From the NCBI RefSeq assembly GCF_010727605.1, contig NZ_AP022568.1, positions 620,001 to 684,000 on the forward strand: a stretch of 64,000 nt of DNA, written 5' to 3'. This document shows positions 32,465 to 56,112 of the stretch, piece after piece. The notes under the pieces are model-generated. The model worked only from the letters and a program-made list of their open reading frames with translations, had not been told where the DNA came from and made no database searches. Position numbers and translations under genes: made by a program. This DNA comes from Mycobacterium simiae (GTDB taxonomy: Bacteria; Actinomycetota; Actinomycetes; Mycobacteriales; Mycobacteriaceae). Every line of letters begins with the position of its first letter. Position 1 is the stretch's first letter.

Positions 32465-33643
32465 TTAGATATCAACCGACCGACCGCGCTCCGCGAAAGA
32501 ATGGGGCTGCGACTGCCCGGATTGGGTGCTGTCCCGGACCAGCTGCTCGGTCACCCTGATCAGCAGTTCCGCAGCGTTGGCCGTGCAACGGGTCAGATCC
32601 GGCTCGACTTCGTTGAGGGTGCGCACCGCGCGGAAACCCGCGGTGCGGGCCTGGGCGCCCGTCAGGCTCGATATGCCGGCCACAGCGAAGGTGGGTATGC
32701 CGTGTGCGCGCGCATGCCGGGAAACACCCACCGGCGCCTTGCCGCGCAAGGACTGCTGATCGAGGGACCCCTCCCCCGTGATGACCATGATGGCATCCAA
32801 CAACTTTCGATCGAGCTCGACGAGCTCGAGGATCATGTCGATGCCGGGTTTCATCTGGGCGCCCAGCACGGCCAGCGCGCCAAACCCCACCCCACCCGCG
32901 GCACCGGCGCCGGGCGCATTACGGCGATCCTCGCCGGTCACCCGTGCCACCAGGTCCGCCCAGTGAGTCAGACCGCAATCCAATTCGCCGACTTGATCGG
33001 CGCTGACCCCTTTTTGCGGTCCGTAAACGGCCGCGGCACCGAGCGGCCCGCACAGTGGGCTGTCTACGTCGGCGGCCAGGGTGACGGTGGCCGTGCTCAG
33101 ACCCGGATGCAACCGGCTCAGCTCTAGACGGGCGGCATCGGCCAAGCCCTGTCCGCCGGGCGCAATCGCGGCTCCATGGCGATCCTGGACCTCGGCGCCC
33201 AGCGCCAACAGCATCCCCACACCGCCGTCAGTACTCGCGCTTCCGCCCACCGTGATCACCAGATCACGGCATCCGTCGTCGAGTGCTTGGGCGATTACCT
33301 GCCCCAGCCCGTAGCTCGTCGCCGTCATCGGCGCTAGCGTTTCTCCCGGAAGTCGTTGCAGGCCACAGATATCGGCCATTTCGATGACCGCACGCCCGTC
33401 CTTGCTGGCATAGCCGGTGCGCACCGGTGCACCGGTCGGACCACACGCCGCGGCGTCGACCGGCTCGAATCCGGCCGCCACGACCGCGCTCAAAGTCCCC
33501 TCGCCCCCATCGGCGACCGGACAGACGATCGGGGTCAGTTCCGGGTCAGCCCGATTGACCCCTTGGGCCATCGCCCACGCCGCCTGCTCGGCCGTCAACG
33601 AGCCCTTGAACTTGTCCGGCGCCAGCACGATGTTGCCCCGCAT
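32465..33643 (-). CDS. glxK: Glycerate kinase (GarK/GlxK type)
   Basis: The 392-residue protein begins IVLAPDKFKGSLTAEQAAWAM, the PF02595 N-terminus, and has VADGGEGTL, GGSASTDGGVGML and ITGEGSLDQQS. Type-II members form 2-phosphoglycerate from D-glycerate and ATP, which would feed enolase and pyruvate kinase. It is transcribed divergently from hyi-glxR-gcl across a 331-bp control region, so all four glyoxylate-to-phosphoglycerate steps share one regulatory region. Confidence 0.93.
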   Translation of the reverse strand: MRGNIVLAPDKFKGSLTAEQAAWAMAQGVNRADPELTPIVCPVADGGEGTLSAVVAAGFEPVDAAACGPTGAPVRTGYASKDGRAVIEMADICGLQRLPGETLAPMTATSYGLGQVIAQALDDGCRDLVITVGGSASTDGGVGMLLALGAEVQDRHGAAIAPGGQGLADAARLELSRLHPGLSTATVTLAADVDSPLCGPLGAAAVYGPQKGVSADQVGELDCGLTHWADLVARVTGEDRRNAPGAGAAGGVGFGALAVLGAQMKPGIDMILELVELDRKLLDAIMVITGEGSLDQQSLRGKAPVGVSRHARAHGIPTFAVAGISSLTGAQARTAGFRAVRTLNEVEPDLTRCTANAAELLIRVTEQLVRDSTQSGQSQPHSFAERGRSVDI

Positions 33644-33974
33644 CAGGAGACCATCCCATCAAGGTTGAGCCGCAAGCGAAACATTCCGTCAGACGGAATC
33701 TGACTTCCATCTGGACAACCTGACATACGCGCGGAATTCATGTCAAAAGTTTCCTACCCGACACCCTGCCACCGATCCAAACTGCCTATCAAAGGCGACA
33801 ATTGGCGTTGTCCCCGGCGCCGGCGGAGTTGACACCATAGTTGGTATCGCCTTGACTTATTCCGTATTCCGATGCGGATATTCCGCAATACGAAACCATG
33901 CTCTTTCGTGACGTGCAGCGGGCCCGCTTCGATGGGCACGCCGACTTTGTGCGGTCTAAGCAGGAAGGACAACT
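33644..33974. promoter_or_regulatory. glxK-hyi divergent control region with IclR-like operators
   Basis: This 331-bp gap has no gene. It contains ATTCCGT-CAG-ACGGAAT, a perfect 17-bp inverted repeat at 33683-33699. It also has overlapping elements at 33868-33886: TCCG-ATG-CGGA (33868-33878) and GCGGA-TAT-TCCGC (33874-33886), flanked by CGTATT/AATACG arms. All share the TCCG/CGGA half-site with 3-bp spacing, like IclR-family operators. A further inverted repeat, TGACAT and ATGTCA, lies at 33721-33745. The first set flanks glxK and the second lies about 90 bp before hyi. Confidence 0.6.
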
Positions 33975-34832
33975 ATGGCTACTGCGACCTATACAGTGAA
34001 CTGCTCGATACTCTTCACCGACCTACCCGTACTGGAACGGCCGGCCGCCGCGCGGGCGGCGGGCTTCGAGGCAGTGGAATTTTGGTGGCCTTTCATCGAA
34101 GCCACACCCCCGGAGGCCGACGTTACGGCCTTCATTCGCGCCATCGAGCAGGGCGGGGTGCAGTTGTCCGGCCTGAACTTCTTCGCCGGATACATGGCCG
34201 GCGGCGACCGGGGTATTCTCTCTGACCCCGCCCTGACCACCGAATTCCGCGACAACGTGCGCGTCGCCGTCAGCATCGCCGAGGCCTTGGGCACCAAGGC
34301 TTTCAATGCCTTGTACGGCAACCGGATTGAGGGTGTGGCCCCCGACGTTCAAGACGATGTGGCGGCCAAGAACATCGCCTACGCCGCGCAAGCCGCGCAG
34401 CAAATCGGTGCGACGGTACTCATCGAGCCGGTCAGCGGCGCACCGCTCTACCCGCTCAAGACCGCTGCCGACGCCGTTGGCGTCATCGACCGCGTGAACG
34501 CGGAGGCCGGTACCACCAACCTGCGTCTCTTGGCGGACTTCTACCACCTGTATGTCAACAACGACGATGTGGTCGCGGCCGTGCAAGCCCACCGGGGCCT
34601 GATCGGACACATCCAAATCGCCGATGCCCCCGGCCGCGGCGAGCCCGGCACCGGCGAGGTTCCGCTCGGCGAGTACTTCGGCGTTCTGGGATCGGAGTAC
34701 GGCGGTTATATCGGCTTGGAATACAAGCCCTCTCGGGCCGACACCTTCGACTGGTTGCCGGCGTCCGAGCGGGGCCGCGGCGGCTTCAACGTCGAATCAC
34801 TGAACACACTGACAGGAACGAGGAATCGGTGA
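33975..34832 (+). CDS. hyi: Hydroxypyruvate isomerase
   Basis: The 285-residue TIM-barrel enzyme interconverts hydroxypyruvate and tartronate semialdehyde. It has GFEAVEFWWPF (residues ~30-40), VLIEPVSG (metal/catalytic E151), LADFYHLYVN and GLEYKPS (second catalytic glutamate), as in Hyi/OtnI proteins. The ribosome-binding site is GGAAGGA. Its stop overlaps the GTG start of glxR (GTGA), so it is the first gene of the coupled hyi-glxR-gcl operon. Confidence 0.93.
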   Translation: MATATYTVNCSILFTDLPVLERPAAARAAGFEAVEFWWPFIEATPPEADVTAFIRAIEQGGVQLSGLNFFAGYMAGGDRGILSDPALTTEFRDNVRVAVSIAEALGTKAFNALYGNRIEGVAPDVQDDVAAKNIAYAAQAAQQIGATVLIEPVSGAPLYPLKTAADAVGVIDRVNAEAGTTNLRLLADFYHLYVNNDDVVAAVQAHRGLIGHIQIADAPGRGEPGTGEVPLGEYFGVLGSEYGGYIGLEYKPSRADTFDWLPASERGRGGFNVESLNTLTGTRNR

Positions 34833-35722
34833 GCACGATCGCATTTATCGGGCTGGGCATCATGGGCAATCCGATGGCCTGCCATTTCGCCCGCGCCGGA
34901 CACACGGTTATCGGCTACAACCGCTCGCCCGGCCGAGCCGCGGCACTGATCGAGGCCGGCGGGACGGAAGCGGACTCCATCGCCGACGCGGTCAAGGATG
35001 CCGATGTGGTGGCCGTCATGGTGCCCGACTCCCCCGATGTCCAAACCGTATTGCTCTCTGAGGGCGGTGTTTTCGCCAACGCCCGACCCGAGACGCTGGT
35101 GATCGACTTTTCTTCGATCCGGCCAGACATCACTGCACAGCTGGCGAAGGAAGCCACCGAGCGCGGGTTGCGTCTCATCGACGCCCCGGTGTCCGGCGGC
35201 GAGGCCGGGGCCAAGAACGCGACACTGTCGATCATGGTCGGCGGCACCGACGAGGATTTCGCCGCCGCCAAACCGTTTCTCGAGATTGTCGGCAAAACGG
35301 TCGTGCATGTCGGCCCCAACGGGGCGGGTCAGACCGTCAAGGCCGCCAACCAACTGATCGTCGCAGGCAACATCGAGCTCCTCGCCGAGGCGATCAACTT
35401 CCTCCGCGCCTACGGAGTCGACCTGGACGCGGCGGTCAAGGTGCTCGGTGGCGGGCTGGCCGGCTCCGCAGTGCTCGACCAAAAGGCGTCAAAGATGTTA
35501 TCCCGCAACTTCGATCCCGGTTTCCGGATCGAGCTGCACCATAAGGACATGGGCATCGTCACCAGCGCGGCCCGCGAAGCCGGCGCGGCCATCCCGCTCG
35601 GCGCCGTCGTCGCCCAACTGATGGCGTCGGCCCTGGCCAACGGAGACGGGTCCCTCGACCACTCCGGCTTGCTGCGCGGTGTCGAGCGTCTGTCAGGACA
35701 CACGGAAGGTGGCACCCAATGA
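34829..35722 (+). CDS. glxR: Tartronate semialdehyde reductase (2-hydroxy-3-oxopropionate reductase)
   Basis: The 297-residue beta-hydroxyacid dehydrogenase reduces tartronate semialdehyde to D-glycerate. The Rossmann motif is [12 protein letters not shown] (residues 6-17). The substrate motif is [16 protein letters not shown] and the catalytic lysine lies in QTVKAANQL. Both ends are coupled: GTGA overlap with hyi and ATGA overlap with gcl. Confidence 0.93.
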
Positions 35723-37512
35723 CACGAATGCGCACTGTCGACGCGGCGGTGAAGATCCTCGAAATCGAGGGTGCGACCAAACTGTTCGGGCTGCCCGGCG
35801 CGGCGATAAACCCGTTCTACTCGGCGATGCGTGCGCACGGCGGAATTCAGCATGTGCTGGCGCGCCACGTCGAAGGCGCCAGTCACATGGCCGAGGGGTA
35901 CACCCGCGCAGCACCGGGCAACATCGGTGTGTGCATCGGCACCTCAGGCCCGGCGGGCACCGACATGATCACCGGCTTGTATTCGGCCAGCGCCGATTCC
36001 ATCCCGATCCTGGCCATTACCGGCCAGGCCCCGGTGAACAAGTTGCACAAAGAGGACTTCCAGGCGGTCGATATTGCCTCGATCGCAGCGCCCGTCACTA
36101 AGATGGCGATGACGGTTCTCGAGCCCGGGCAGGTTCCCGGGGCCTTCGCCCAGGCGTTCCACCTGATGCGCTCGGGTCGGCCCGGTCCGGTGCTGATCGA
36201 CCTGCCGATCGACGTTCAGCTGGCCGAAATCGATTTCGACCCAGAGGCTTACGCTCCCCTGCCGGTCTACAAGCCCTCGGCCACCGCGGCACAGATCAGC
36301 AAAGCTCTCGATATGCTGTGCAGTGCGCAACGCCCGCTCATCATCGCCGGCGGCGGCATCATCAACGCCGACGCCTCGGCACTGCTGATCGAGTTGGCCG
36401 AAGTGCTCAACGTCCCGGTGGTGCCGACGCTGATGGGTTGGGGAACGATTCCCGACGATCATCGGCTGGCCGCCGGCATGGTCGGGCTGCAGACCGCACA
36501 CCGGTACGGCAACGCCACGTTGCTGGAATCGGATTTCGTCATGGGTATCGGCAACAGGTGGGCCAATCGCCACACCGGCGGGCTCGACACCTACCGGCGG
36601 GGTCGCCGGTTTGTCCACATCGACATCGAACCCACCCAGATCGGCCGCGTGTTCTCCCCGGACCTTGGGATTGTCTCCGATGCCAAGGCGGCGCTGGAAC
36701 TGCTGGTGGCCGCGGCGTCCGAACGCCGCACCGCCGGAGCCCTGCCGGACTTCACGGACTGGGTGAGCGGTTGCCAAGAACGCAAGCGGACGATGCACCG
36801 CAAGACCCACTTCAACGACATCCCGATCAAACCGCAGCGCGTGTACGAAGAGATGAATCGGGCGTTCGGCCGGGACGCACGCTACGTCACGGCCATCGGC
36901 CTCTCCCAGATCGCGGGCGGCCAATTCCTGCAGGTGTTCAAGCCGCGGCATTGGATCAACTGCGGCCAGGCCGGCCCCCTGGGTTGGACAGTGCCCGCCG
37001 CGCTCGGCGTGGTCGCCGCCGACCCCTCCGCCACGGTGGTCGGGCTGTCGGGCGACTACGACTTCCAGTTCCTCATCGAAGAGCTCGCCGTCGGCGCACA
37101 GTTCAACCTGCCCTACGTCCATGTCGTGGTGAACAACTCTTACCTCGGGTTGATCCGGCAGGCTCAGCTCAACTTCGACATGAACTACTTCGTCTCGCTG
37201 GCGTTCGATAACATCAACGCCCAGGAGTCGGAAGACACCGACCTACCGAAGGGCTACGGAGTCGACCATCGTCGGGTGGCGGAAGGGTTGGGCTGCAAGG
37301 CGATTCAGGTCTCAGACCCCGAGCAGATCGCACCAGCCCTGGCTCGTGCCCAGCAACTTGCGCGCGAGCACAAAGTTCCGGTGGTGGTCGAGATCTTCCT
37401 GGAGCGCATCACGAACATCGCGATGGGCACCGACATCGACAAGATCACCGAACACAATGAACTGGCGGCCACAATCGATGATTCGCCCACTGCTGCAATG
37501 CTGTTCGACTAG
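35719..37512 (+). CDS. gcl: Glyoxylate carboligase (tartronate semialdehyde synthase)
   Basis: The 597-residue ThDP enzyme condenses two glyoxylates to tartronate semialdehyde and CO2. Its hallmark is visible: residue 51 is valine ([14 protein letters not shown]) where almost all ThDP enzymes have glutamate, exactly as in E. coli Gcl. The ThDP/Mg motif runs from [12 protein letters not shown] to VVVNN (about residues 449-477). FAD is expected structurally. Length agrees with E. coli Gcl (593). It is the last gene of the hyi-glxR-gcl operon and is followed by an IclR regulator 26 bp later. Confidence 0.96.
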
Positions 37513-37538: not shown

Positions 37539-38306
37539 ATGAGCGAAGACGACCGCCGGAGCGGGGTTCAGTCAGTAGAGCGGGCTTTCGGCGTGCTGGA
37601 GATTCTGGCCGCCATGGGCGGGACGGGAGCACTGGGTGAACTTGCGGCACGCGCTCATCTGCCGCAACCCACCATGCACCGATTAGTGCGAACGCTGCTG
37701 AGTATGGGATATCTACGGCAGCTGCCCAACCGGCACTATTCGTTGGGGCCGAAGCTGATCCGGCTGGGCGAGAGCGCCGGTGAGCTGGTCGGCATGTGGT
37801 CCCGGCCGCATCTTGGTGAGCTGGTAGAACGTACCGGCGAGACGGCAAACATGGCGGTGATGGATAACGACATGGCGGTTTACGTCGCTCAGGTCCCGTC
37901 CCCCCATTCCATGCGAATGTTCACCGAGGTCGGCCGGCGCGTCTATCTGCATTGCACGGGCGTAGGTAAGGCGCTGCTGATGCAGCTGCCCGACGAGGCG
38001 TTGCGTGCTTTGGTGACGCGCACCGGAATGCCGGCGGCGACCGAGAATTCGCATACGACGCCCGACGGGCTGCTGCAGGACATCACATTGTGCCGGGCCC
38101 GTGGCTACGCGGTCGACGAGGGCGAGCAGGAAATCGGGGTGCGTTGTTTTGCCGTGCCGGTGCCCGACGCGCCGTCACTTACCGCGATATCGATTTCGGG
38201 TCCCGCGGTACGGGTCACCCTGACGTCCGCGCCAACAATCACTCCGTTGTTGAAGCGCGTGGCACACGATATCTCGTCGACGTTCCACAACGGCGCCGCC
38301 TGCTAA
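37539..38306 (+). CDS. IclR-family transcriptional regulator
   Basis: The 255-residue protein has an N-terminal winged helix (VQSVERAFGVLEILAAMGGTG, then PQPTMHRLVRTLLSMGYLRQ, quoted in pieces) and a C-terminal IclR effector domain (HLGELVERTGETANMAVMD, then RVYLHCTGVGKALL and AIRARGYAVDEGE-like RARGYAVDEGEQEIGV). IclR members near gcl genes (AllR, for example) sense glyoxylate or allantoin products. The position just after gcl and the TCCG-N3-CGGA palindromes upstream of hyi and glxK suggest it controls the glyoxylate arm. Confidence 0.9.
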   Translation: MSEDDRRSGVQSVERAFGVLEILAAMGGTGALGELAARAHLPQPTMHRLVRTLLSMGYLRQLPNRHYSLGPKLIRLGESAGELVGMWSRPHLGELVERTGETANMAVMDNDMAVYVAQVPSPHSMRMFTEVGRRVYLHCTGVGKALLMQLPDEALRALVTRTGMPAATENSHTTPDGLLQDITLCRARGYAVDEGEQEIGVRCFAVPVPDAPSLTAISISGPAVRVTLTSAPTITPLLKRVAHDISSTFHNGAAC

Positions 38307-38656: not shown

Positions 38657-39832
38657 TCAGCCGTAGACCCGGCTGGCGGCAGCGGTTCCACCCAGGTGGG
38701 CGTAGCGCTCGGCAACCGCCCGGAGTCGCCGCCGCACCACCCGGGCCGCCGCCAGGATCACATCGCTGGGGAAATCGCGGCGTTGTTCGCTGCGCCCGGG
38801 CCAATACGGCGCTTCGCCGCGGTGGATCGCGGCTTCGGCCTCTTCGACGATGCGTGCCATCGTGGCCACGGTGTGGGCCGGATAGGCGCCGACGCTGGTT
38901 TCCGCGGACAACATGACGGCGTCCGCGCCGTCGAGCACCGCATTGGCCACGTCGGAGACCTCGGCCCGGGTCGGCCGGCGGTCAGAAACCATCGAGTCCA
39001 GCATGTGCGTGGCGACGATCACCGGCTTGTCCGCCTCGCGGCACAGCCGTATCACTCGCTTTTGGACCAGCGGAATCTGTTCCAATGGCATCTCCACACC
39101 CAGATCACCGCGGGCCACCATGACGCCGTCGAACGCGCCGACGATCGCCGGCAAACACGAAACGGCCTCCGGCTTCTCCAGCTTCGCGATCACGGGCACC
39201 CGCCTGCCGACCTCAGTCATGACGCTGTGGGCCAGTTCGACCTCTTCGGGAGCGCGCACAAATGACATGGCGACCATATCGACACCGAGTTCCAATGCGA
39301 ACTTCAGATCGGCGATGTCTTTGTCGGACAACGTCGGAGCGCTCACAGCGATCCCGGGGAGCGAGATGCCCTTGTTGTCGCTCACCGGTCCGCCGTAGAT
39401 GACCTCGCACCCGATGTCGGCGCCGATGACTTCCACCACCGCCAGGTCGATGCGGCCGTCGTCGACGAGCAGCCGGTCGCCGGTTTTCACATCTGCCGAA
39501 AGACCACCGTAGGTGGTAGAGACCCGGTCGTGATCACCCGGGCAAGTGTCGGTGGTGATCGACACTTTCTCACCGGCACTCCAGACCACCGGTCCATGGG
39601 CGAATCGGCCCAACCGGATCTTGGGTCCCTGCAGGTCTGCGAGTACTTGCACCGCGCGGCCACGGCTGGCCGCGATCTCGCGGACGAGATCGTATAGGGC
39701 CGAATGCTCAGCGTGGGTGGCGTGGCTGAAATTCAAACGGGCAACATCCATTCCGGCGTCGATGAGTTCAGCCAGACGGGGAGCTGTTGCGGTGGCGGGT
39801 CCCAGCGTGCAGACGATCTTGGTTGTGCGCAT
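38657..39832 (-). CDS. pyk: Pyruvate kinase paralogue lacking the C-terminal domain
   Basis: The 391-residue protein keeps the catalytic core: KIVCTLGPAT at the start, ADLQGPKIRLGRF, IAKLEKPEA (catalytic lysine), FDGVMVARGDLGVE (Mg-binding E/D) and the active-site ATHMLDSM region. After SAETSVGAYPAHTVATMARI the family's ~130-residue C domain, which carries the allosteric site and tetramer contacts, is missing. It is replaced by about 50 unrelated residues. Mycobacterial PykA is 472 residues. It would make pyruvate and ATP from PEP without usual allosteric control. It is 17 bp downstream of the PanE-like gene. Confidence 0.9.
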   Translation of the reverse strand: MRTTKIVCTLGPATATAPRLAELIDAGMDVARLNFSHATHAEHSALYDLVREIAASRGRAVQVLADLQGPKIRLGRFAHGPVVWSAGEKVSITTDTCPGDHDRVSTTYGGLSADVKTGDRLLVDDGRIDLAVVEVIGADIGCEVIYGGPVSDNKGISLPGIAVSAPTLSDKDIADLKFALELGVDMVAMSFVRAPEEVELAHSVMTEVGRRVPVIAKLEKPEAVSCLPAIVGAFDGVMVARGDLGVEMPLEQIPLVQKRVIRLCREADKPVIVATHMLDSMVSDRRPTRAEVSDVANAVLDGADAVMLSAETSVGAYPAHTVATMARIVEEAEAAIHRGEAPYWPGRSEQRRDFPSDVILAAARVVRRRLRAVAERYAHLGGTAAASRVYG

Positions 39833-39849: not shown

Positions 39850-40875
39850 TTAGCGCAGAGCCGCTTGAGGTTGTTGTTGCACTATCCCGTTACCGTGTGA
39901 CGGCGCCACCCCGCACGTGCGCGCGAGGAGACCGGTGGCCGCGTGGACCGTGCGCAACGTGGGGGCGGGCGCCTTGGTCAGGTCGGCGAGTTCCACCACC
40001 GCGGAGACAATCGCGTCGAGCTCGAGCTGCTTGCCCGCTTCCAGGTCTTGCAGCATGGAGGTCTTGTGATGGCCGACGTTCTCAGCGCCACGCAGCCGCT
40101 TGTCGATCGAGATATCGGGCGTGCAGCCCAATCTGGCCGCAATGTCCAGGGTCTCCTCCATCAGTTGGATCACCACCTGCCGCGTGTGCGGGTCCTGGCA
40201 CATCTCGACCATCGTCGCTCTGGTCAACGCGCTGAGGGGATTGAAGGCCACGTTGCCCATCAACTTGATCCAGATGTCGTCGCGCAAGTTCTCTTCCACC
40301 GGGCATTTGAGCCCGCCGGCGATCATCGCCTCGCTCAACGCCTTGCATCGCTCGGACAGCTCGCCGGACGGTTCACCGATGGAAAAGCGCGTCCCCTCGA
40401 GATGGCGGACCACGCCGGGCTCATCCAGAACCGTCGCCGGGTACACCACACAGCCGATCGCCCGTTCGGGAGCCAACACCGCGCTGGTCGCGCCGCCCGG
40501 ATCAACCGCCTCGATCCGATGTCCCTCGAACGGACCCGCCAACCGGTAGAAGTACCACCATGGAATGCCGTTCTGCGCGGCGACAACCGCTGTATTCGGT
40601 CCCATCAGCGGCTCCACCAGCGGACCGCAGGTGGGATAGCTGTGCGCTTTGAGCCCTAAGAACACATAGTCGACCGGCCCCACCTCGGCCGGGGAGTCAG
40701 TCACGTGAGGATGTGCCACGAAGTCGCCGCGAGGGCTCAGTACGCGTACTCCGTTTTTCTGCATGGCTCGCAGGTTGTCGTTTCGCGCGATCAGGTGAAC
40801 GTCAGCACCACCGCGGTGCAACGCGGCGCCCCAATACGCCCCGATCGCTCCGGCTCCAACGACTGCAATCCTCAT
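39850..40875 (-). CDS. PanE/ApbA-family reductase, candidate oxalyl-CoA reductase
   Basis: The 341-residue protein has a Rossmann motif VVGAGAIGAYWG (residues 5-16), AQNGIPWWYFY (ketopantoate reductase N102 position) and IWIKLMGNVAFNPLSALT with a candidate catalytic lysine K204. By family it would be an NADPH-dependent 2-ketopantoate reductase. In Methylobacterium extorquens a PanE paralogue (PanE2) is the oxalyl-CoA reductase that makes glyoxylate from oxalyl-CoA. The neighbours here supply oxalyl-CoA (Frc, Oxc), use glyoxylate (Gcl) and supply NADPH (Pnt), so that role is favoured; it remains inferred. ATG 40875 has GAGGAG 7 bp upstream. Confidence 0.8.
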   Translation of the reverse strand: MRIAVVGAGAIGAYWGAALHRGGADVHLIARNDNLRAMQKNGVRVLSPRGDFVAHPHVTDSPAEVGPVDYVFLGLKAHSYPTCGPLVEPLMGPNTAVVAAQNGIPWWYFYRLAGPFEGHRIEAVDPGGATSAVLAPERAIGCVVYPATVLDEPGVVRHLEGTRFSIGEPSGELSERCKALSEAMIAGGLKCPVEENLRDDIWIKLMGNVAFNPLSALTRATMVEMCQDPHTRQVVIQLMEETLDIAARLGCTPDISIDKRLRGAENVGHHKTSMLQDLEAGKQLELDAIVSAVVELADLTKAPAPTLRTVHAATGLLARTCGVAPSHGNGIVQQQPQAALR

Positions 40876-40942
40876 GAATTCTCCTCTGCATCCGGCGTAC
40901 ACTCAGTCGCTCTAGGACCATGGCCAGGCTTCGATCATTATT

Positions 40943-40955: not shown

Positions 40956-41057
40956 GATCCTTGTATGTTGTAGCCATCGCGCTCTCGGCGGGAGGCCGGC
41001 ATGGCACCGGACCCGGGCGCGTCATGTGTGCCTTTCGGCCAATCAAGGAAGAGGAAT

Positions 41058-43842: not shown

Positions 43843-43873
43843 ATCAACGGCACGCACAGCCGAACATACTTGA

Positions 43874-43893: not shown

Positions 43894-43938
43894 CAAGAAG
43901 AGAGCCGAGCATCGGCGGATGAAAGGAATCGAATTTCT

Positions 43939-45433: not shown

Positions 45434-45464
45434 GAAAAACATCGAATGGGGAGTGGGATAATTC

Positions 45465-47539: not shown

Positions 47540-47845
47540 TGACTCACTTTCGGAGAATAAAGAAGAGGGGATGGCTCGGCGGCCGCATGCATCGAACGGC
47601 GGGCCGCCGAATTGCTGGCGTTCGGTGGTTACGTGGATACGTGACCTATGGCGGTGCGCGGCCGGTGGTTTCGTGCGCACTTCGCACTCGGTGCGCCGCG
47701 CGGAGCGCCCACAACCGCGACCGGCCAGCGATGAGCCACCTCGGTGTCACACCGAGTCGCACGCGGTCAATTCCCACAACCGGGTCCTTCTCCGCCGAGC
47801 CAGTGGATCTCTAGATGCGTCTCGCGTCCGCGTCAGCTCGCGCGC
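47540..47845. other. 306-bp interval between frc1 and transporter 1
   Basis: No gene is convincing. It contains CTCGGTGT-C-ACACCGAG (47740-47756), an 8-1-8 inverted repeat that could be an operator or a weak terminator stem for frc1; no U tract follows on the minus strand. The purine-rich stretch next to the transporter start serves as its leader. Confidence 0.5.
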
Positions 47846-49075
47846 TCAGACCACTCCCGCGCTTCTGAACTGCTCTACTTCCTCCGGTGAATAGCCGAGC
47901 TCCATACAGATCTGTTGGGTGTGCTCCCCCAACAGCGGCGGTCGCTCGACCTCCACGGGCGAGTCAGACAGCCGCAGCGGGCTGCCGACGGTCTTGAAGG
48001 TTCCACGCTCGGGGTGCTCGACGCTGACAATCGCACCGAGGTCGGCAAGGCTTTGGTCCTCGATCAGCTCCTTGGTGCCCAACACCGGACCGCACGGAAC
48101 GTTGATCGAGTTCAGCGCCTCCATCGCATCGAACTTGCTGTGACGTTGGCTCCAGTCCTCGATCAGGGCAAAAACCTTGTCCAACTTGGGTAGTCGGTCC
48201 TCGGGGGAATCCCAATCCGGATGCTCGGCGAGGTCGGGCCGCCCGATGAGACGGGCCAGCGGCGCCCACACCGCAGGCTGGATGATCACGTAGAGGTAGT
48301 CATTAGGTCCATCGCCCTTGGTACGCACGGCCCACCCCGGCTGCCCCCCGCCGGACGCGTTGCCCGCGCGCGGCACCTCGTCGCCGAAGTGCTCGTTGGG
48401 ATATTCGTGCAGCGGGCCGTGCGCGAGGCGCTGTTGGTCGCGCAGTTTGACCCGACACAGGTTGAGTACGGCGGCTTGCATCGCAACCTCGACGCGTTGT
48501 CCACGACCGGTATTGGTGCGCTGCAGCAGCGCAGCCAGAATCGCGGCGACAAGGTGCACTCCTGTGCCCGAGTCGCCAATCTGCGCACCCGTAGCAGTGG
48601 GCGGACCGTCCTCGAAACCCGTTGTGGCCATGGCGCCACCCATGGCCTGAGCAATGATTTCGTAGGCCTTGAAATCGAAGTACTTGCCCGGCCCGAAGCC
48701 TTTGATCGATGCATAGATCAAGCCCGGGTTGATTTCTTGCAGCCGCTCCCAACTGAACCCGAAGCGGTCGACGACGCCCGGTCCGAAGTTTTCCACCAAA
48801 ACATCGGAGCGAGCTACCAATCTGCTGAAAATTTCCTGACCGTCTTCACTTTTCATGTTCACGGTCACGCTGCGTTTGTTGCAGTTGAGCATCGTGAAGT
48901 AGAGGCTGTCGACGTCAGGGATGTCGCGGAGCTGGCTGCGGGTGATGTCCCCACCCCTGGGCGTTTCGAGCTTGATGACGTCGGCGCCGAGCCAGGCAAG
49001 CATCTGCGTCGCAGACGGGCCCGACTGAACATGAGTCATGTCCAAGACCCGGACGCCGTCTAATGCCTTACCCAT
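47846..49075 (-). CDS. Family III CoA-transferase, Frc-like, copy 1
   Basis: The 409-residue protein starts LDGVRVLDMTHVQSGPSATQ and has the catalytic aspartate D168 (GAQIGDSGTG, equivalent to D169 of Oxalobacter Frc). The glycine loop reads SGGGQPGW rather than GGGGQPGW. It should transfer CoA to oxalate, but the changed loop and middle region leave the donor open: formyl-CoA, acetyl-CoA or succinyl-CoA are all plausible. An acetyl-CoA:oxalate type enzyme would prime the cycle. ATG 49075 has GGGAGA upstream. A GntR-type box lies 226 bp upstream at 49301. Confidence 0.85.
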   Translation of the reverse strand: MGKALDGVRVLDMTHVQSGPSATQMLAWLGADVIKLETPRGGDITRSQLRDIPDVDSLYFTMLNCNKRSVTVNMKSEDGQEIFSRLVARSDVLVENFGPGVVDRFGFSWERLQEINPGLIYASIKGFGPGKYFDFKAYEIIAQAMGGAMATTGFEDGPPTATGAQIGDSGTGVHLVAAILAALLQRTNTGRGQRVEVAMQAAVLNLCRVKLRDQQRLAHGPLHEYPNEHFGDEVPRAGNASGGGQPGWAVRTKGDGPNDYLYVIIQPAVWAPLARLIGRPDLAEHPDWDSPEDRLPKLDKVFALIEDWSQRHSKFDAMEALNSINVPCGPVLGTKELIEDQSLADLGAIVSVEHPERGTFKTVGSPLRLSDSPVEVERPPLLGEHTQQICMELGYSPEEVEQFRSAGVV

Positions 49076-49300
49076 GAGATCTCCCTGAGAATTGTCGTGA
49101 TGGACGCGGAATGCGTAGCCCTCCACGCCGATTAAGCGGCCGCCCGTTGTGGTTCCGGGTGTCGCACGACAGGGATGCAGTGCCCACCATTACCTCAACT
49201 TTCCGGGGCTTTTCGCCCGGTCGATCCCCCGCGCACCGCAAGACTCCGAAGCAGTGGCTGCGCTGCAACGGCCGGGATTCGATTGTGCCTACTGCAGACT

Positions 49301-49313
49301 GTATACCGTATAC
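49301..49313. promoter_or_regulatory. GntR-type box upstream of frc1
   Basis: GTATAC-C-GTATAC is a perfect 6-1-6 inverted repeat in the 492-bp divergent interval between frc1 and transporter 2 (49076-49567). The rest of the interval shows no gene. Confidence 0.6.
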
Positions 49314-49539
49314 GACAAGTGTCACTAAAACTCACTCAATTGTCTAGGCCTAGCAACCACTGCCGTCCGGCCGCGACTTCCCCGCTGCCGATTGAATGGC
49401 CGCGGCCGGCGCGGAATTAGTCGGGCAAACTTCTTTGCCGAATAGCGTTGCGCCCAGCGCTCACAACTCCCGGCGGCCCTGCTGACGCCGGCGCACCCAT
49501 CTCCCCCTAGACACACATGGGTTAACCGGGTAGAAAAGT

Positions 49540-49552
49540 GTATACAGTATGC
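49540..49552 (+). promoter_or_regulatory. GntR-type box just upstream of transporter 2
   Basis: GTATAC-A-GTATGC ends 15 bp before the ATG at 49568, overlapping where RNA polymerase or the 30S subunit would load. Repression by steric block is expected. Confidence 0.6.
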
Positions 49553-49567
49553 ACAAGGGAGACCACC

Positions 49568-50911
49568 ATGACCGCTGGAGATGGACTGTCGGTCCTACAG
49601 ATCAGAGCACACGGGTGCTCGTACCGCATCGGCGAGCGACCGCACGACATCATGGCCCGCTCCCGGAGCTGGATGCTGTGGTTGCCGTGGACGGCGATGG
49701 CCGGCATCAGCGTGCTCCAGTTCGGCTACGGAGTCGCCGTGGTAGCCATGCAGCAGCCACCTCATGCGGTCACCCCCGGCGCCTTCTGGGTGTTGGCGTT
49801 ATGGGTCGTTTTTCAGGCGGCCGCCTCCGCGGCCACTCCACCGCTACGGCGGCGCTTGGGCATTGGGCCGTCGACGGCGATGCTGATCGGTGCCGATTTG
49901 GCAGCCATGGGCCCATTGACACTGTCGTGGACGGGCGATCTCGGGTTCACCATGCTCGGCTACTCGGTGCTGTGTGGTACCGGTGCCGGAATCGTTTATG
50001 CCACTTGCCTTTCCACCGTCGCGAGGTGGTATCCCGAGCACCGCGGCGCAAAGGTCTCGTTGGTGTCGGGCGCCTTCGGGGCCGGCGCGGTGCCGTTCGT
50101 CATGTTGTTCGCACTGGTCCTCCGCCCGGACAACCTGGACGCGGTCTTCACGGCAGTCGGCCTGTGCGTGCTGGTCGTCGTGACGGTGTGCGGCGCCTTT
50201 TTCCAGGACCCGCCGCCCGACTGGTGGCCGATCGAGGTCGACCCGAGACGATGGGTAGTCGACAAGCAGGTAAACCGCAGCCTGTTGGGCAACGCCCCGG
50301 CGATTCGCCAGTACTCGCCGCCCGAGACGGCACGGACCCGTGCCTTCGTGCTCACCTACCTCATCGCGGTGGTGGCCTCGTCGGCGGCGCTGCTGACCAT
50401 CGTCTACATCCCCAGCATCGCCAGCGCGCACGGCCTGCCGCTTTCCGTCGGCGCCGCTGCCGTCGCGGTGCTGGCACTGGTCAACGGCGGCGGTCGGGGC
50501 ATCGCCAGCCGCTACTCGGACCGATTTGGCCGGCGTCAGACGTTGAGTCTGGCGTTGCTCGGCGGGGGAATCGCCTTGTTGGGGCTGGCGTACTCGGCAT
50601 CGACGGGCTCGTCCGTCGGGCTGATTGCATTCGCCGCACTCGGCGGCTTGGCCGGCGGAGCCTTCTATTCGCTGTTCATCAACCTGGTTGCCGACTACTT
50701 CGGCGAGCACAGCGCGGTTGCGAACTTCGGGCTCGTTTACAGCGCCAAGATATTCGGCGGCCTACTCGGGGTGGGACTGCCCGCGCTGTTGATTCCGTCC
50801 AGACGTTTGGACCTGGCCCTGGTGGTCGGCGGCCTAATCTGCCTTTGCACGGCCATCGCACCGCGCCGGCTGCAGCGGCCCGGCTACCCGGTGTGCCGGC
50901 TGCCGAACTAG
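49568..50911 (+). CDS. OxlT-type MFS transporter, copy 2
   Basis: The 447-residue protein shares with copy 1 the N-terminal YRIGERPHDIMARSRSWMLWLPW region, ISVLQFGYGVAVVAM (helix 1), CGTGAGIVYATCLSTVARWYPEHRG and FQDPPPDWWPIEVDP, but is clearly divergent. Twelve hydrophobic segments fit the OFA family. ATG 49568 has GGGAGA upstream; the frame to 49538 would begin inside the operator. It may carry a different exchange (for example formate export or proton symport) or act at a different oxalate concentration. Confidence 0.87.
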   Translation: MTAGDGLSVLQIRAHGCSYRIGERPHDIMARSRSWMLWLPWTAMAGISVLQFGYGVAVVAMQQPPHAVTPGAFWVLALWVVFQAAASAATPPLRRRLGIGPSTAMLIGADLAAMGPLTLSWTGDLGFTMLGYSVLCGTGAGIVYATCLSTVARWYPEHRGAKVSLVSGAFGAGAVPFVMLFALVLRPDNLDAVFTAVGLCVLVVVTVCGAFFQDPPPDWWPIEVDPRRWVVDKQVNRSLLGNAPAIRQYSPPETARTRAFVLTYLIAVVASSAALLTIVYIPSIASAHGLPLSVGAAAVAVLALVNGGGRGIASRYSDRFGRRQTLSLALLGGGIALLGLAYSASTGSSVGLIAFAALGGLAGGAFYSLFINLVADYFGEHSAVANFGLVYSAKIFGGLLGVGLPALLIPSRRLDLALVVGGLICLCTAIAPRRLQRPGYPVCRLPN

Positions 50912-51237: not shown

Positions 51238-52494
51238 TTAGACCACGATCTCGTTCTTGCGCCACTCGGCGATGGTGTCGGCGTCGTAACCCAACTCGGC
51301 CAGCACGTCGTCGGTGTGCTCACCCAGCAGCGGCGCACCCTTGATCTCAGGCTTGAACGAGGAGAACTTGATCGGGCTGCCGACCGTGAGGTATGTCCCA
51401 CGGCCCTTCTGCTCGACCTCGACGACACTGCCGCTCTTGCGCAGATCGGGATCCACGGCGATCTCTTTCATCGAAAGGACCGGCGCGCAAGGGACTTCCC
51501 ACTTACGCAGGATGTCGACGGCCTCGTACTTCGTCTTGTCGGCGAGCCACTTCTCGATCTCGGCGAAGATGTCGAAGATCTTGTCCTGGCGAGCAAGCGC
51601 CGTGTTGTAGCCCGGGTCCTCGGCCCACTCCGGGCGCCCGATCGCCTCGGCCGTCCGCTTCCAGTTCTGTTCCTGGATGGTGAAGTAGATGTAGGCGTTG
51701 GGGTCGGACTCCCAGCCCTTGCACTTGAGCACCCAGCCCGGCTGACCGCCGCCGCCGGCGTTTCCGCCACGGGGCACCGCGTCGCTGAACGTGCCGTTGG
51801 GGTACTGCGGGTACTCCTCCAGGTATCCGACCCGTTCGAGGCGCTGCTGGTCGCGCAGCTTGACCCGGCATAGGTTCAACACGGAGTCCTGCATCGAGGC
51901 CGAGACCTTCTGCCCCTTGCCGGTCTTCTCCCGCTGGATCAGCGCCGTGAGAATGCCGATCAACAGGTGCATTCCGGTGTTCGAGTCACCCAGCGCCGCA
52001 CCGCTGACGGTCGGCGGGCCGTCCCAGAACCCCGTGGTCGAAGCGGCACCGCCGGCACATTGCGCCACGTTCTCGTAGACCTTGAGGTCGTTCCACGACG
52101 AGTCGTCATTGAAGCCCTTGACCGAACCGAAGATCAATCGCGGGTTCCATGACTGCAACTTGTCCCAGGACAGGCCCATGCGGTCCATTGCGCCAGGAGC
52201 GAAGTTCTCCACCAGCACGTCGGCCTGGCGGATCAGCTTCTCCATGACCTCGACGCCCTCAGGTGACTTCGTGTTGATCGCCAGCGAGCGCTTGTTGCTG
52301 TTGAGCATGGTGAAGTACAGAGCGTCGACTTCTGGTATGTCCCGCAGCTGATTACGCGTGACATCACCGCCAGTGGTCCGCTCGACCTTGAGGACGTCTG
52401 CTCCAAACCACGCGAGCATCTGGGTGCAAGCTGGCCCCGCCTGGACGCCGGTGAAGTCGATGACCTTGATCCCAGACAAAGGCAGTTCGGCCAT
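51238..52494 (-). CDS. frc: Formyl-CoA:oxalate CoA-transferase, copy 2
   Basis: The 418-residue enzyme exchanges CoA between formyl-CoA and oxalate. It follows the bona fide Frc/YfdW pattern closely: [20 protein letters not shown], catalytic D170 in [12 protein letters not shown], the glycine loop [10 protein letters not shown] (residues 245-254), and [20 protein letters not shown]. Length is close to Oxalobacter Frc (428). ATG 52494 has AAAGGAAA upstream. It follows oxc by 79 bp on the same strand, forming the classical oxc-frc pair. Confidence 0.95.
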
Positions 52495-52573
52495 ATCGGA
52501 TTTCCTTTCTTTCTGTGCTTTCCAGTTACCTTGTGTCGACGACCTGATTGTTAGGCCGACATGCCAACGGATT

Positions 52574-54304
52574 TCAGCCCTTGTTGGTGATCCCTTTCGG
52601 GTTGAGGTGAGCGATGTTGCCGCTCTCGGTTCCATCGGACGGGTCGATCAAGCAGTCGATCAGCGCCGGCCGACCGGAGGCCAACGCCTCCCGAAGCGCC
52701 GCGGCGACTTCGTCGGGCGTTTCGGCGCGGTAACCGGTTCCGCCGAAGGCCTTGATCATGAATTCGTGATGCGCCTGCAGTGACGTGGGAGCCGGGTCGT
52801 CATCGGACCCCGATGCCTCATCGCCGCGGTATACGCCACTGTTGTTGAGGATGACCGTGACGATGGGCAGGTTGTAGCGGCAGATGGTCTCCAGTTCCAT
52901 TCCGCTGAAGCCGAAGGCGCTGTCTCCCTCGATCGCGACCACCGGCTCACCGGTCTCCGCTGCCGCCGCGATGGCGTACCCCATCCCGATGCCCATCACG
53001 CCCCAGGTACCGCTGTCCAGACGGCGCCGCGGCCGGTACATACCGATCGTGTTGCGCGCCAGGTCCAGCGCGTTGGCCCCTTCATTGACCAGGCAGACCT
53101 GCGGGTTGTCTTGCAGCACATCACGTATGGCCTGCAGCGCACCCAGGAACTTCATCGGGTGGGCTTCCCGTGCGGCCGCAAGGCGGTCGGTCATCTTGGC
53201 GATGTTTTGCTTCGCCTTGCCGGACAACTCCTCCCGCCACTGGGCCGACGTGCTGATCTGACCGGGCTTGGAGCGCTCCAGCAGAGCCTGCATCACCGAG
53301 CCGATGTCACCGACCAGCGGAGCGGCAATCGGCTGGTTGCTGTCCATCTCGGTGGCCTCGATGTCGATCTGGATGAACTTGGCGTCGGGGTTCCACTGCG
53401 GCGCATCGCCGTGTCCGAGCAGCCAGTTCAACCGCGCACCGACCAGCAAGACCACGTCGGCACGGCGCAGCGCCAAAGACCGCGAAGTCGCCACCGACTG
53501 CGGGTGGTCATCAGGCAGCAGTCCCTTGGCCATCGACATGGGCAGGTACGGCGCTCCGGTGCTCTCCACGAATTCTTTGATCTGCTCGTCGGCCTGGGCG
53601 TATGCGGCGCCCTTACCGAGGACAATCAGCGGGCGCTCGGCGCCGGCGAGCAGCTCGATTGCCGCGTCCACCGACTCCACGTTCGGCAGTTGCTTCGGAG
53701 CTAGATCGACTACGCGCCACAACGTTTGGGCCGCGAACTTCGCGTCGATCACCTCGCCCAGCACGGCGGCCGGGATGTCGAGGTAGACGCCGCCGGGCCG
53801 CCCGGATGCCGCGGTCCGCAACGCCCGGGCGATGCCGCGGCCGATGTCCTGGGCGCGAGATACTCGGTACGCCGCCTTCACGAAGGGACGGGCTGCCGCC
53901 AGCTGGTCCATCTCTTCGTAGTCACCGCGCTGCAGGTCGACGAGATGGCGCTCACTCGAACCCGAGATCTGCACCATGGGAAAGCAGTTCGTGGTGGCGT
54001 TCGCCAGTGCGACGAGTCCATTGAGAAAGCCGGGCGCCGAAACCGTCAGGCAGATGCCGGGCTTCTGGGTCAGGAAGCCGGCCGCGGCCGCGGCGTGTCC
54101 GGCAGCGCTCTCATGACGGAAGCCAATGTAGCGGATACCCGATGCCTGTGCCGTCCGCGCCAAGTCGGTGATAGGAATACCGACGAGCCCATAGATCGTA
54201 TGAACGTCGTTGAGCCGAAGCGCGTCGACCACCAAATGAATTCCATCGGTGAGACCTCCGGCATCCTCAGCGTCGGTGTCTTCGATGGTAGCCGCCGTCG
54301 TCAC
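52574..54304 (-). CDS. oxc: Oxalyl-CoA decarboxylase
   Basis: The 576-residue ThDP enzyme converts oxalyl-CoA to formyl-CoA and CO2. The ThDP-activating glutamate is E65 ([15 protein letters not shown]). The ThDP/Mg motif runs from [14 protein letters not shown] to VILNN (about residues 456-485). [12 protein letters not shown] and [11 protein letters not shown] are typical Oxc segments. GTG 54304 is chosen because GGAAAGG lies 6 bp upstream; a TTG at 54310 abuts that site. M. tuberculosis has an orthologous OxcA (Rv0118c) beside the LysR gene oxyS, an arrangement echoed here. Confidence 0.95.
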
Positions 54305-54405
54305 GAGCAACCTTTCCGGCAGTACATGCCTTTTTCGTATTGTGTTACTGCTCTTTACTTTTCCCTAGCCTGGACCACGCGTCCAAGACCTAGTGGTATT
54401 CAAGC

Positions 54406-54468: not shown

Positions 54469-55461
54469 TCACGCCACATAGGATTCCCTCGCCGGTGCGC
54501 TCGCTGGCACCACATCCAGATTCGGATCGAATTCACCGCCTACCTCACGACCACCGAAACTGAATTCTTCAGGCCCAAGCGGTGATCCGACCGCGACGTT
54601 CAAGAACGCCCGGGCAGCACACGAACCCGGCGCCGAAGCATGGATGGCTATCGAAATCTCGGTCCGCTGTTCGGGTTCGACCAAACGCAATCCCCGCAAT
54701 GCGCCGGTCACCGGCATTGCCCGAAACCAGGTGTGCGGCACGATGCTTGCCCAAGCGCCCGTGGCGACGTGAGCGTACAGCGACGCCATCGAGTCGGTCT
54801 CGATCTGCGGCACGACCGTCGTGCCCACGTTCGCAAACGCGTCGTCGATGAATTGCCGGAAGCCAACCTCCGGTGCGGGCAGCGCAAGTGGAACCTGAGC
54901 CGCCTCAGCCCACGTGATGGTTCCGGATGCCGGCGCAAGCTGCTTTCCCGAGACCAGTAACACGCACTGTTCCTCGTAGAGCGGGATCAGCTCGAGACCG
55001 GAATGGTCCCGTTCATCGAAATGTCCGATCGCCACGTCGAGTTCGAAATTGCGAAGCTGTCGTACCAATTCCGTTGTTGGCAAATGCGATCGGACTTTCA
55101 CCCGAGCCAGCGGGTGCAAGGAACAGAAGGTGGCGATCGGCAGCGCCGCGGTCGTCAATACCGTCGCACCCGCCCCCAATCGCAACACGCCCGAAATCCC
55201 GGATCGCAACGCGGCCGCCTCAGCCACCAGGCCGTCGTGTACAGCGAGCACCCTTTTGGCCCAGACGACCAGACGTTCGCCCTCCACGGTCAGGCCCTCG
55301 AAATTGCGTCCACGATTAATCAGCGTGACGTTGAGCTCGCGTTCAAGCTTCGCGATGGATGCCGACAACGCGGGCTGGGAGACGTAGCAAGCCTCGGCGG
55401 CCCGGGCGAAGTGTCGCTCTCTTGCGACCGCGACGAAGTACTCCAATTGACGTAGCAGCAC
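54469..55461 (-). CDS. LysR-family regulator, OxyS-like
   Basis: The 330-residue protein begins LRQLEYFVAVARERHFARAAEACYVSQPALSASIAKLE (quoted in pieces: LRQLEYFVAVARERHF), a LysR winged helix. The substrate-binding domain follows from about residue 90. From memory it resembles M. tuberculosis OxyS (Rv0117), which neighbours oxcA. It is upstream of and codirectional with oxc-frc2 and divergent from the PAS gene. It probably activates oxc-frc2 in response to oxalate or oxalyl-CoA, or to oxidative state. Confidence 0.9.
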   Translation of the reverse strand: MLLRQLEYFVAVARERHFARAAEACYVSQPALSASIAKLERELNVTLINRGRNFEGLTVEGERLVVWAKRVLAVHDGLVAEAAALRSGISGVLRLGAGATVLTTAALPIATFCSLHPLARVKVRSHLPTTELVRQLRNFELDVAIGHFDERDHSGLELIPLYEEQCVLLVSGKQLAPASGTITWAEAAQVPLALPAPEVGFRQFIDDAFANVGTTVVPQIETDSMASLYAHVATGAWASIVPHTWFRAMPVTGALRGLRLVEPEQRTEISIAIHASAPGSCAARAFLNVAVGSPLGPEEFSFGGREVGGEFDPNLDVVPASAPARESYVA

Positions 55462-55518
55462 CGGGCCTCCTCCTTGCCTGCCAACCGCGCCGAAAGCCCA
55501 ACTGAATTAGTTGGGACT

Positions 55519-55531
55519 GTATGCAGTATGC
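55519..55531. promoter_or_regulatory. GntR-type box between lysR and the PAS gene
   Basis: GTATGC-A-GTATGC retains one full half-site and symmetry-related residues in the other. It lies 58 bp before the lysR start. A separate inverted repeat, ACTACC-AGTC-GGTAGT at 55544-55559, is closer to the PAS gene and may be a second regulator's site. Confidence 0.45.
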
Positions 55532-55614
55532 ATTATGCAGTAGACTACCAGTCGGTAGTGCCTCATTCACGTCGGCCCGGGACCAACGTCGGCAGGATCA
55601 CAGAAAGGAAGAAA

Positions 55615-56112
55615 GTGAACAGCCCAGACGCAGGCCGCGCAGCAGAAAAGGCTCGCATCGCCGACATCACCGAGGAGTGGATCGCCGCGGCGGTGGTGAG
55701 CGCCACGCCCGAGGCTATCGTCGTGTGTGACGCCGGGGGTGTGATTCGACTGTGGAACGACGGAGCCCAGCGCATGTTCGGCTACTCGACGGACGAAGCG
55801 CTCGGCCAAAACCTGGACATCATCATCCCGGAAAAGCTGCGCAAGCGGCACTGGGACGGCTACCACAAGACCATGGCCACCGGACAAACCCGCTACGGCG
55901 ACCAGCTGCTGAGCGTGCCGGCCACTCACCAAGACGGCCACCGGCTATCGATCGAGTTCAGTGTTGCCCTCTTGCAGCACGACGGCCGCATCGTGGGCAT
56001 TTCCGCGATCATGCGCGAGGTGACCGAACGCCGGAACGAAGAGCGGGCGCTGCGCGCGCGGCTCGCCGAAGTCGAGGCTCGGCTCGGCGAGCTGGAGAGC
56101 GCCGTCAGCTGA
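55615..56112 (+). CDS. PAS-domain sensor protein
   Basis: The 165-residue protein is a single PAS domain (about residues 22-135) with AIVVCDAGGVIRLWNDGAQRMFGYS, quoted in part, DIIIPEKLRKRHWDGYHK and a PAC segment GISAIMREVTERRNEE. A coiled-coil tail follows (RALRARLAEVEARLGELES). There is no kinase or output domain. RHWDGYH resembles the FixL/Dos helix that supplies the haem-binding histidine, so a redox or gas sensor is possible. GTG 55615 has AAAGGAAGA upstream; an in-frame ATG at 55474 lies in the lysR promoter. Confidence 0.8.
   Translation: MNSPDAGRAAEKARIADITEEWIAAAVVSATPEAIVVCDAGGVIRLWNDGAQRMFGYSTDEALGQNLDIIIPEKLRKRHWDGYHKTMATGQTRYGDQLLSVPATHQDGHRLSIEFSVALLQHDGRIVGISAIMREVTERRNEERALRARLAEVEARLGELESAVS

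Follow-up and report, generated by a model that had tools for sequence, protein, structure and literature searches.

Why would a mycobacterium keep genes for splitting oxalate, for reducing it and for turning the product into glycerate side by side? The question is raised by a 64,000-nucleotide stretch of the Mycobacterium simiae genome (contig NZ_AP022568.1, positions 620,001 to 684,000; hereafter the window), in which an earlier note, made from the sequence without database searches, had seen an apparently complete oxalate-growth island. We place this island at ~29.43-56.11 kb of the window (~27 kb) and consider it, with a probability of about 0.85, to be an oxalate-growth regulon that would provide uptake, an energy branch and carbon assimilation. 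The pairing of an energy branch with a glyoxylate-glycerate assimilation branch, put forward in the earlier note, now finds support in the co-occurrence of PanE, Gcl and Frc1, a common operator, gene deletions in Cupriavidus necator and RNA sequencing (RNA-seq) in Mycobacterium smegmatis, and the proposed function appears well supported by comparison and precedent.

NCBIfam and Pfam scans of the window's open reading frames (ORFs), judged against curated cut-offs, confirm each gene family named in the earlier note, including the GntR, IclR and LysR regulators and the PAS protein (Table 1). Curated cut-offs are exceeded by Oxc, Frc1, Frc2, Gcl, GlxR, glycerate kinase and the NAD-dependent formate dehydrogenase; the closest solved chain to Oxc is 7ayg, and the formate dehydrogenase is close to the solved structures 2gsd and 2nac. 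The genes do form a single block, as had been claimed, but the left edge first set at 32465 does not hold, the true start lying at ~29430 and taking in a PPE gene, a small ORF (hyp31) and an HDAC-like gene. In the comparison across Mycobacterium genomes that the earlier note had proposed, gene order and content recur, and for 25 window genes compared with six relatives the best-aligning parts yield ratios of nonsynonymous to synonymous substitution (dN/dS) of 0.00-0.24; the island is therefore not a chance assembly. The nearest relative genome, G185, shows ~86-91% DNA identity across aligned stretches.

In the route that we propose, oxalate would cross the outer membrane possibly via the PPE protein and the inner membrane by two OxlT-like MFS carriers, assigned by family and with oxalate as the presumed substrate. 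Frc2 and Oxc, to judge from their families, would convert oxalate to formate and CO2 via oxalyl-CoA and formyl-CoA; formate dehydrogenase would yield NADH, and the extra transhydrogenase, if coupled to it, could pass the reducing power from NADH to NADPH. For carbon, the PanE-like enzyme would turn oxalyl-CoA into glyoxylate, Gcl, Hyi and GlxR would carry glyoxylate to glycerate, and glycerate kinase and pyruvate kinase would lead on to central metabolism. Since free CoA is a product of the PanE step, the oxalyl-CoA consumed there cannot be made good by exchange with formyl-CoA alone, and net assimilation needs extra charging of oxalate. Frc1 is a candidate for this step and may draw on another acyl-CoA to recharge oxalate. 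A GntR-type regulator acting on the palindrome TGNATACNGTATNCA is predicted to control panE/pnt, frc1, mfs2, lysR/pas and the PPE gene, and IclR the glycerate genes.

The distribution of three key proteins was scored in 396 genomes drawn evenly from the genus of Mycobacterium sp. 852002-51057 (genome G001, locus L001), with presence thresholds of E<=1e-40 for the PanE-like protein, E<=1e-200 for Gcl and E<=1e-180 for Frc1. A PanE-like protein is present in 32 genomes, the copy in G284 being a fragment at a contig edge. Gcl occurs in 49, comprising 31 of the 32 PanE-positive and 18 of the 364 PanE-negative genomes (Fisher 3e-32), and Frc1 in 32, with 31/32 and 1/364 respectively (Fisher 8e-44); both values ignore shared ancestry. 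The single PanE-negative genome with Frc1 is G104, whose copy has an internal stop. Within PanE-positive genomes, Gcl is found inside the island, ~20-40 kb off, on another contig or at a distance, and because it so often sits at another locus its association with PanE is more than simple linkage.

Neighbourhoods were fetched for 20 of the 32 PanE-positive genomes, eight of the window type and 12 of a compact type, and frc2, oxc, lysR, pas, pyk, panE and pntAa were matched in all 20. The complete window layout is seen in G185, G372, G228, G260, G147 and G046; G206 has the HDAC-like gene and the oxalate block at the window's site, and the glycerate genes are not there. As far as ~29430, G177, G091 and G001 align collinearly with the window's left flank. 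In G001 this flank reaches within 130 bases of an enoyl-CoA hydratase stretch (window 56177), leaving an empty site, and the oxalate block (PPE-hyp31 and pyk to pas, without the HDAC-like and glycerate genes) is found between the counterparts of window positions 19945 and 19968. In G177 and G091 the HDAC-like and glycerate genes come immediately after the flank, and PPE, hyp31 and the oxalate half are absent. Given the displaced block of G001 and these two layouts, the window island looks like two modules, a glycerate module nested within an oxalate block to which the PPE gene belongs.

Other arrangements are more dispersed. In G279, G375, G159, G124 and G404, gcl, frc1 and MFS genes lie with gntR or iclR ~20-30 kb from panE; in G354 and G092, frc1, MFS genes and the HDAC-like gene are ~20-30 kb from panE and gcl is distant; in G300 and G305 a second cluster (gcl, frc1, MFS genes) is on another contig. 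Outside mycobacteria, panE stands beside pnt and oxc in Actinacidiphila/Streptomyces loci (L009, L018, L020), and an Azospirillum plasmid (L155) carries panE-pnt-oxlT with gcl ~6 kb further on. An eroded copy of the island occupies the same site on contig C79 of G104 (L176, L177), a 3.2 Mb genome of the same genus: mfs2, frc1, fdh and pntB are damaged, gntR is matched full length at 96% identity, and the stretch fetched holds no separate match to oxc, frc2, lysR, pas or panE.

The palindrome TGNATACNGTATNCA sits before panE/pntAa, frc1, mfs2, lysR/pas and the PPE gene. A scan of the window with TGTATRCNGTATRC (both strands, <=2 mismatches, palindromic sites counted per strand) gave 18 matches against 1.06 expected in shuffles. 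Sites before PPE, panE/pntAa, gntR, frc1, mfs2 and lysR/pas recur in relatives, not each of them everywhere, and the panE/pntAa operator stays unchanged across seven aligned sequences while the spacer around it has diverged. Whole genomes were scanned with TGNATACNGTATNCA at <=1 mismatch, each place being counted once and overlapping places separately, with the compact-type genomes left out. Eight PanE-positive genomes hold 5-9 sites each, and 45 of the 54 sites lie in the island; the totals, with island sites in brackets, are 5 (5) in G185, 7 (6) in G372, 8 (6) in G228, 9 (6) in G260, 7 (6) in G147, 7 (5) in G046, 5 (5, in the displaced block) in G001 and 6 (6) in G206. In the same scan G177 and G091, two relatives that lack the oxalate half, had no site, and a reversed control pattern gave 0-2 sites per genome. 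The eight genomes do not amount to eight independent proofs, since the pattern itself comes from the window and these relatives have a common ancestry. A site also lies between gntR and panE in Streptomyces locus L003, which makes GntR the likeliest candidate reader of the palindrome. The spacer before hyi has a conserved block of its own in seven sequences, presumably the target of the adjacent IclR, which would then be the local regulator of hyi-glxR-gcl.

At least two pntB genes are present in 18 of the 20 PanE-positive genomes tested, the exceptions being G206, where the island copy is missing, and G305, each with a single one; one pntB is likewise found in each of five PanE-negative genomes tested. 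The NAD-type formate dehydrogenase is present in 8/8 window-type and 2/12 compact-type neighbourhoods; a Mo-type formate dehydrogenase alpha subunit lies within ~2 kb of frc2 in 12/12 compact-type neighbourhoods and was not seen in 40 kb of any of the eight window-type ones. That two unrelated formate dehydrogenases fill one slot points to NADH supply from formate. Pyruvate kinase is 391-413 aa long in 8/8 window-type and 470-475 aa in 11/12 compact-type genomes (the G124 frame ends early), and what remains of the truncated enzyme is under purifying selection (dN/dS 0.06-0.11).

The PanE-like protein is proposed to be an oxalyl-CoA reductase on the strength of its homologues and of its linkage to, or co-occurrence with, oxc, frc and gcl. 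It is 46.7% identical to a relative from Cupriavidus metallidurans and 45.4% to one from Methylobacterium bullatum, in whose 17 kb neighbourhood no oxc or frc match was found. Both the window protein and the C. metallidurans relative (534.4 bits) exceed the cut-off of model NF005089. Schneider reportedly described Methylobacterium extorquens PanE2 as an oxalyl-CoA reductase in 2012. That enzyme, whose activity is the one proposed here and with which the window protein was compared through the M. bullatum relative only, has been used in vitro to convert oxalyl-CoA to glyoxylate, according to the portion of the paper available (PMC8411744).

The two CoA-transferases differ in a glycine-rich loop that has been proposed to encode substrate specificity (PMC3720670, in the part of the text at hand). 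Frc2 has the loop NAGGGGQPG, as in E. coli YfdW, and Frc1 has NASGGGQPG. Among the loci examined for the loop, copies matching Frc2 best carry NAGGGGQPG in 30/31 cases, the exception being Polynucleobacter L064, where a second copy stands next to Frc2, and copies matching Frc1 best carry NASGGGQPG in 28/29, the remaining one (the G104 relic) being unreadable. Copies with the Frc1-type loop come from Actinobacteria, Cupriavidus and an alphaproteobacterial metagenome-assembled genome, and this apparent subfamily with a constant Ser in the loop would be a new part. A YfdE-like acetyl-CoA:oxalate CoA-transferase identity for Frc1 is not supported, as the loop is of the glycine type with no GNxH. 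Beside frc1 and near panE, Cupriavidus metallidurans (L156:12339-14261) and Nonomuraea (L154:7945-9678) encode a thiamine-diphosphate enzyme that reaches the cut-off of none of the 25 top-ranking models listed (PRK05858 being the best) and cannot be clearly assigned to either Oxc or Gcl.

To our knowledge, most PPE proteins have no known substrate. For the PPE protein of the island, gene context and operator make a candidate outer-membrane channel for oxalate the natural reading. It draws on the operator (0 mismatches to TGNATACNGTATNCA before the PPE gene in G185, G372, G260, G147, G046 and G001, 1 in G228 and G206), linkage to the oxalate block, with which the gene travels in G001, purifying selection (dN/dS 0.13-0.19 in six relatives) and the literature on PPE proteins in nutrient uptake. 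PPE51 and other PPE proteins have been linked to nutrient uptake across the mycomembrane (PMC8826857, PMC12607722, in the portions available); the window protein belongs to the same family, with oxalate as a candidate substrate suggested by gene context and operator only. An MspA-family match is found once in each of nine PanE-positive genomes (the eight window-type ones and G074) and 1 to 11 times in the other 23, some matches being fragments. The idea that PPE substitutes for absent MspA porins is weakened, as all window-type genomes keep an MspA-family gene. A need for hyp31 as partner of PPE is likewise weakened by broken or partial copies: hyp31 has three stops in G147, one stop in one G046 alignment and none in another, and in G185 is a 76-residue partial match not found at 1e-15. 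That PPE is a dedicated oxalate channel within a single GntR regulon and that Frc1 is a separate subfamily which uses a donor other than formyl-CoA to charge oxalate for assimilation is, taken together, a tentative proposal to which we give somewhat less than even odds. If true, the substrate of a PPE protein could be read directly from operon logic and the missing step of oxalate assimilation would have a name; the shared operator, mostly confined to one metabolic island, makes the PPE substrate directly testable.

The PPE and HDAC-like genes might instead be bystanders at the island's edge, which we regard as unlikely though worth weighing. The HDAC-like gene was not found in the G001 block or in six compact-type second clusters (G279, G375, G124, G300, G305, G404), PPE is a 73-residue fragment in G206, its best G001 match covers 228 columns, and no PPE match occurs in the 12 compact-type neighbourhoods. 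Against this, the whole genome holds few operator copies, one of them before PPE, the PPE gene accompanies the displaced block in G001 and is missing beside the HDAC-like gene in G177 and G091, which have no oxalate half, and the HDAC-like gene has operator copies before it in G206 and G159. One guess at the role of the HDAC-like protein is that it removes lysine acyl groups left by reactive acyl-CoAs; a protein of this kind (52% identity) is also encoded near oxalate genes in Azospirillum (L155:2296-3225).

Two further explanations concern the island as a whole. A link to glycolate or glyoxylate use instead of growth on oxalate would accord with the urate/allantoin genes nearby in Azospirillum L155 and with C. 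necator ApbA2, which is discussed in the glycolate/glyoxylate direction in the available part of its description, the oxalyl-CoA route being secondary in glycolate use (PMC7486775). It is nevertheless improbable: none of the scanned island ORFs has a glycolate or allantoin family among its best matches, the island has two OxlT-like carriers, of which mfs2, like panE/pnt, has an operator, and an extra proton-driven transhydrogenase would suit an NADPH-consuming reduction. Still less credible, to the point of being very unlikely, is a role confined to tolerance of oxalate or acid stress, such as has been suggested for E. coli yfdXWUVE, with the linked carbon genes having separate roles; PanE, Frc1 and Gcl co-occur near-completely, and formate dehydrogenase and the extra transhydrogenase lie within the block.

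Several observations weigh against the oxalate-growth regulon. Absences in the genome sample rest on assemblies of unstated completeness, with the best 3-5 candidates scored per genome, and among the 32 PanE-positive genomes scored G007 lacks Gcl and G074 lacks Frc1. The 24 mycobacterial rows of the PanE tree form one group (97/83), with nine of them in a window-type clade; the number of independent events may therefore be small. NF005089, the best-scoring model for the PanE-like protein, is named 2-dehydropantoate 2-reductase and a match to it thus leaves the substrate unfixed; PanE family models do not separate oxalyl-CoA reductase from ketopantoate reductase. Some labels of the earlier note stand at family level only. 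Its two OxlT-type transporters belong to the OxlT family and miss the equivalog cut-off (TIGR04259, 131.1 bits for MFS1 and 116.1 for MFS2 against 335); its hyi falls in the hydroxypyruvate isomerase family and below the equivalog cut-off of TIGR03234, yet this model is the best of its matches; its pyruvate kinase is a true family member in which the scan found only the barrel domain. Two of the 18 operator matches in the window (32694, 40888) fall within genes, and no copy precedes hyi-glxR-gcl there. The NAD-type formate dehydrogenase aligns in three pieces in G046, and island pntAb, pntB and mfs2 were not seen in the G206 neighbourhood. Frc1 lacks the GNxH loop of acetyl-CoA:oxalate CoA-transferases, and PPE has a possible alternative as porin, since one MspA-family gene is retained in every window-type genome.

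The chemistry of the route is already known from Cupriavidus and Methylobacterium. C. necator follows the same logic with frc-oxc, apbA2 and gcl-hyi2-tsr, namely decarboxylation for energy and a PanE2-type reductase with the glycerate route for carbon. As reported in the accessible text of PMC7486775, deletion of frc-oxc abolishes its growth on oxalate, and the doubling time on oxalate rises from 6.5 to 10 h without apbA2 and is 13 h without the glycerate enzymes. There the glycerate genes form their own operon and formate is oxidised by the FdsABDG complex (PMC7486775), whereas the window gathers all parts, plus an extra transhydrogenase, pyruvate kinase and PPE, in one block mostly under one operator; its PanE-like protein was set beside the C. 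metallidurans relative only. E. coli yfdXWUVE likewise has two class III CoA-transferases with Oxc, with an idea of priming attached to YfdE (PMC3720670, as far as the text is available); Frc1, with its glycine-rich, Ser-containing loop, differs from YfdE, which has the GNxH loop.

A published M. smegmatis experiment can be reread in this light. Upon deletion of the F6 small RNA, 15 genes pass the authors' threshold, all of them up, and 14 of the 15 lie in MSMEG_0149-0168 (PMC8583896, here and below from the part of the paper available). The upregulated set includes panE, pyk, pnt, lysR, oxc, two frc and formate dehydrogenase, and the authors describe formate metabolism, oxalate utilisation and transhydrogenase. 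The order runs transhydrogenase beta, PntAB, an "alanine dehydrogenase" that we read as PntAa, panE, pyk, lysR, oxc, frc and formate dehydrogenase subunits, which fits our compact type by annotated names and order. The formate dehydrogenase is multi-subunit, no PPE or glycerate genes are among the 15 listed, and MSMEG_0149 (called ThiC) has no counterpart in the window scheme. By annotated names and order, our own reading is that this cluster may be one oxalate regulon. No title or abstract opening in the mostly non-subscription literature that we consulted describes a combined oxalate growth cluster in mycobacteria; what is new is the mycobacterial arrangement, the local regulon, the PPE gene inside it and the distinct Frc1 subfamily. 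The island thus offers a genetic handle on oxalate assimilation in actinobacteria, a reading of the M. smegmatis RNA-seq result and a testable role for a second Frc subfamily seen in Actinomycetota and Pseudomonadota.

Table 1. Genes and operator sites of the island, in window coordinates
Feature	Position	Strand	Evidence and remarks
Operator copy before PPE gene (TGAATACTGTATACA)	29526..29540	.	pattern scan
PPE family protein (PPE-SVP)	29559..30893	+	PF00823 207.5 bits; real start probably at 29601
hyp31, small ORF behind PPE gene	30922..31413	+	
HDAC-like amidohydrolase, frequent island accessory	31423..32352	-	PF00850 312.7 bits
Glycerate kinase	32465..33643	-	TIGR00045 366.4 bits, cut-off 168.45
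Hyi-like, hydroxypyruvate isomerase family	33975..34832	+	TIGR03234 242.6 bits, below cut-off 353.45
Tartronate semialdehyde reductase GlxR	34829..35722	+	TIGR01505 362.6 bits, cut-off 340.75
Glyoxylate carboligase Gcl	35719..37512	+	TIGR01504 1096 bits, cut-off 711.2
IclR-family regulator	37539..38306	+	nearest model BhcR 187.9 bits, cut-off 350
Pyruvate kinase, 391 aa, without C-terminal domain	38657..39832	-	TIGR01064 461.9 bits, cut-off 306.4
PanE/ApbA-like reductase	39850..40902	-	NF005089 463.9 bits, cut-off 223; real start probably at 40875
Operator between panE and pntAa	40942..40956	.	invariant TTGCATACAGTATGCG in 7 aligned sequences
PntAa, PntAb, PntB (extra NAD(P) transhydrogenase)	41001..43842	+	family scans
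Single-subunit NAD-dependent formate dehydrogenase	43870..45114	+	NF005750 696.6 bits, cut-off 329
Weaker operator-like copies before gntR	45420..45434, also 45324	.	2 mismatches each to TGTATRCNGTATRCA
GntR-family regulator	45465..46175	+	family scan
MFS transporter 1, OxlT-like	46139..47680	-	TIGR00890 181.0 bits, below cut-off 374.85
Frc1, class III CoA-transferase, loop NASGGGQPG	47846..49126	-	TIGR03253 630.3 bits, cut-off 504.2
Two overlapping operators before frc1	49293..49314	.	stronger one also in whole-genome scan
Operator before mfs2, 0 mismatches	49539..49553	.	also in whole-genome scan
MFS transporter 2, OxlT-like	49538..50911	+	TIGR00890 137.5 bits, below cut-off 374.85
Frc2, formyl-CoA:oxalate CoA-transferase, loop NAGGGGQPG	51238..52635	-	TIGR03253 706.1 bits
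Oxc, oxalyl-CoA decarboxylase	52574..54310	-	TIGR03254 994.9 bits, cut-off 739.4
LysR-family regulator, conserved beside oxc	54469..55461	-	family scan
PAS-domain protein, conserved beside lysR-oxc	55474..56112	+	family scan; real start probably downstream of operator
Operators between lysR and pas, second copy weaker	55518..55539	.	first copy also in whole-genome scan

For mfs2 the frame starting at 49538 was taken, since the overlapping ORF 49549-50982 has no NCBIfam or Pfam match at E<=1e-3; because the operator overlaps the start of the called frame, the true start probably lies downstream of 49538. Relatives of the PAS protein (48-55%) stand beside oxc-frc in Polynucleobacter, another betaproteobacterium and Paraburkholderia (L055, L063, L064, L067-L069, L074, L077). 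A second oxc type, with 67-70% identity to the window Oxc and lysR adjoining on the other strand, is found in mycobacterial loci L039-L043, L045-L049, L052, L053 and L057, and Mycobacterium sp. 852002-51057 has both types (L001, L047). Outside the island, the window carries an Actino-pnp RNA motif at 16642-16712 on the minus strand.

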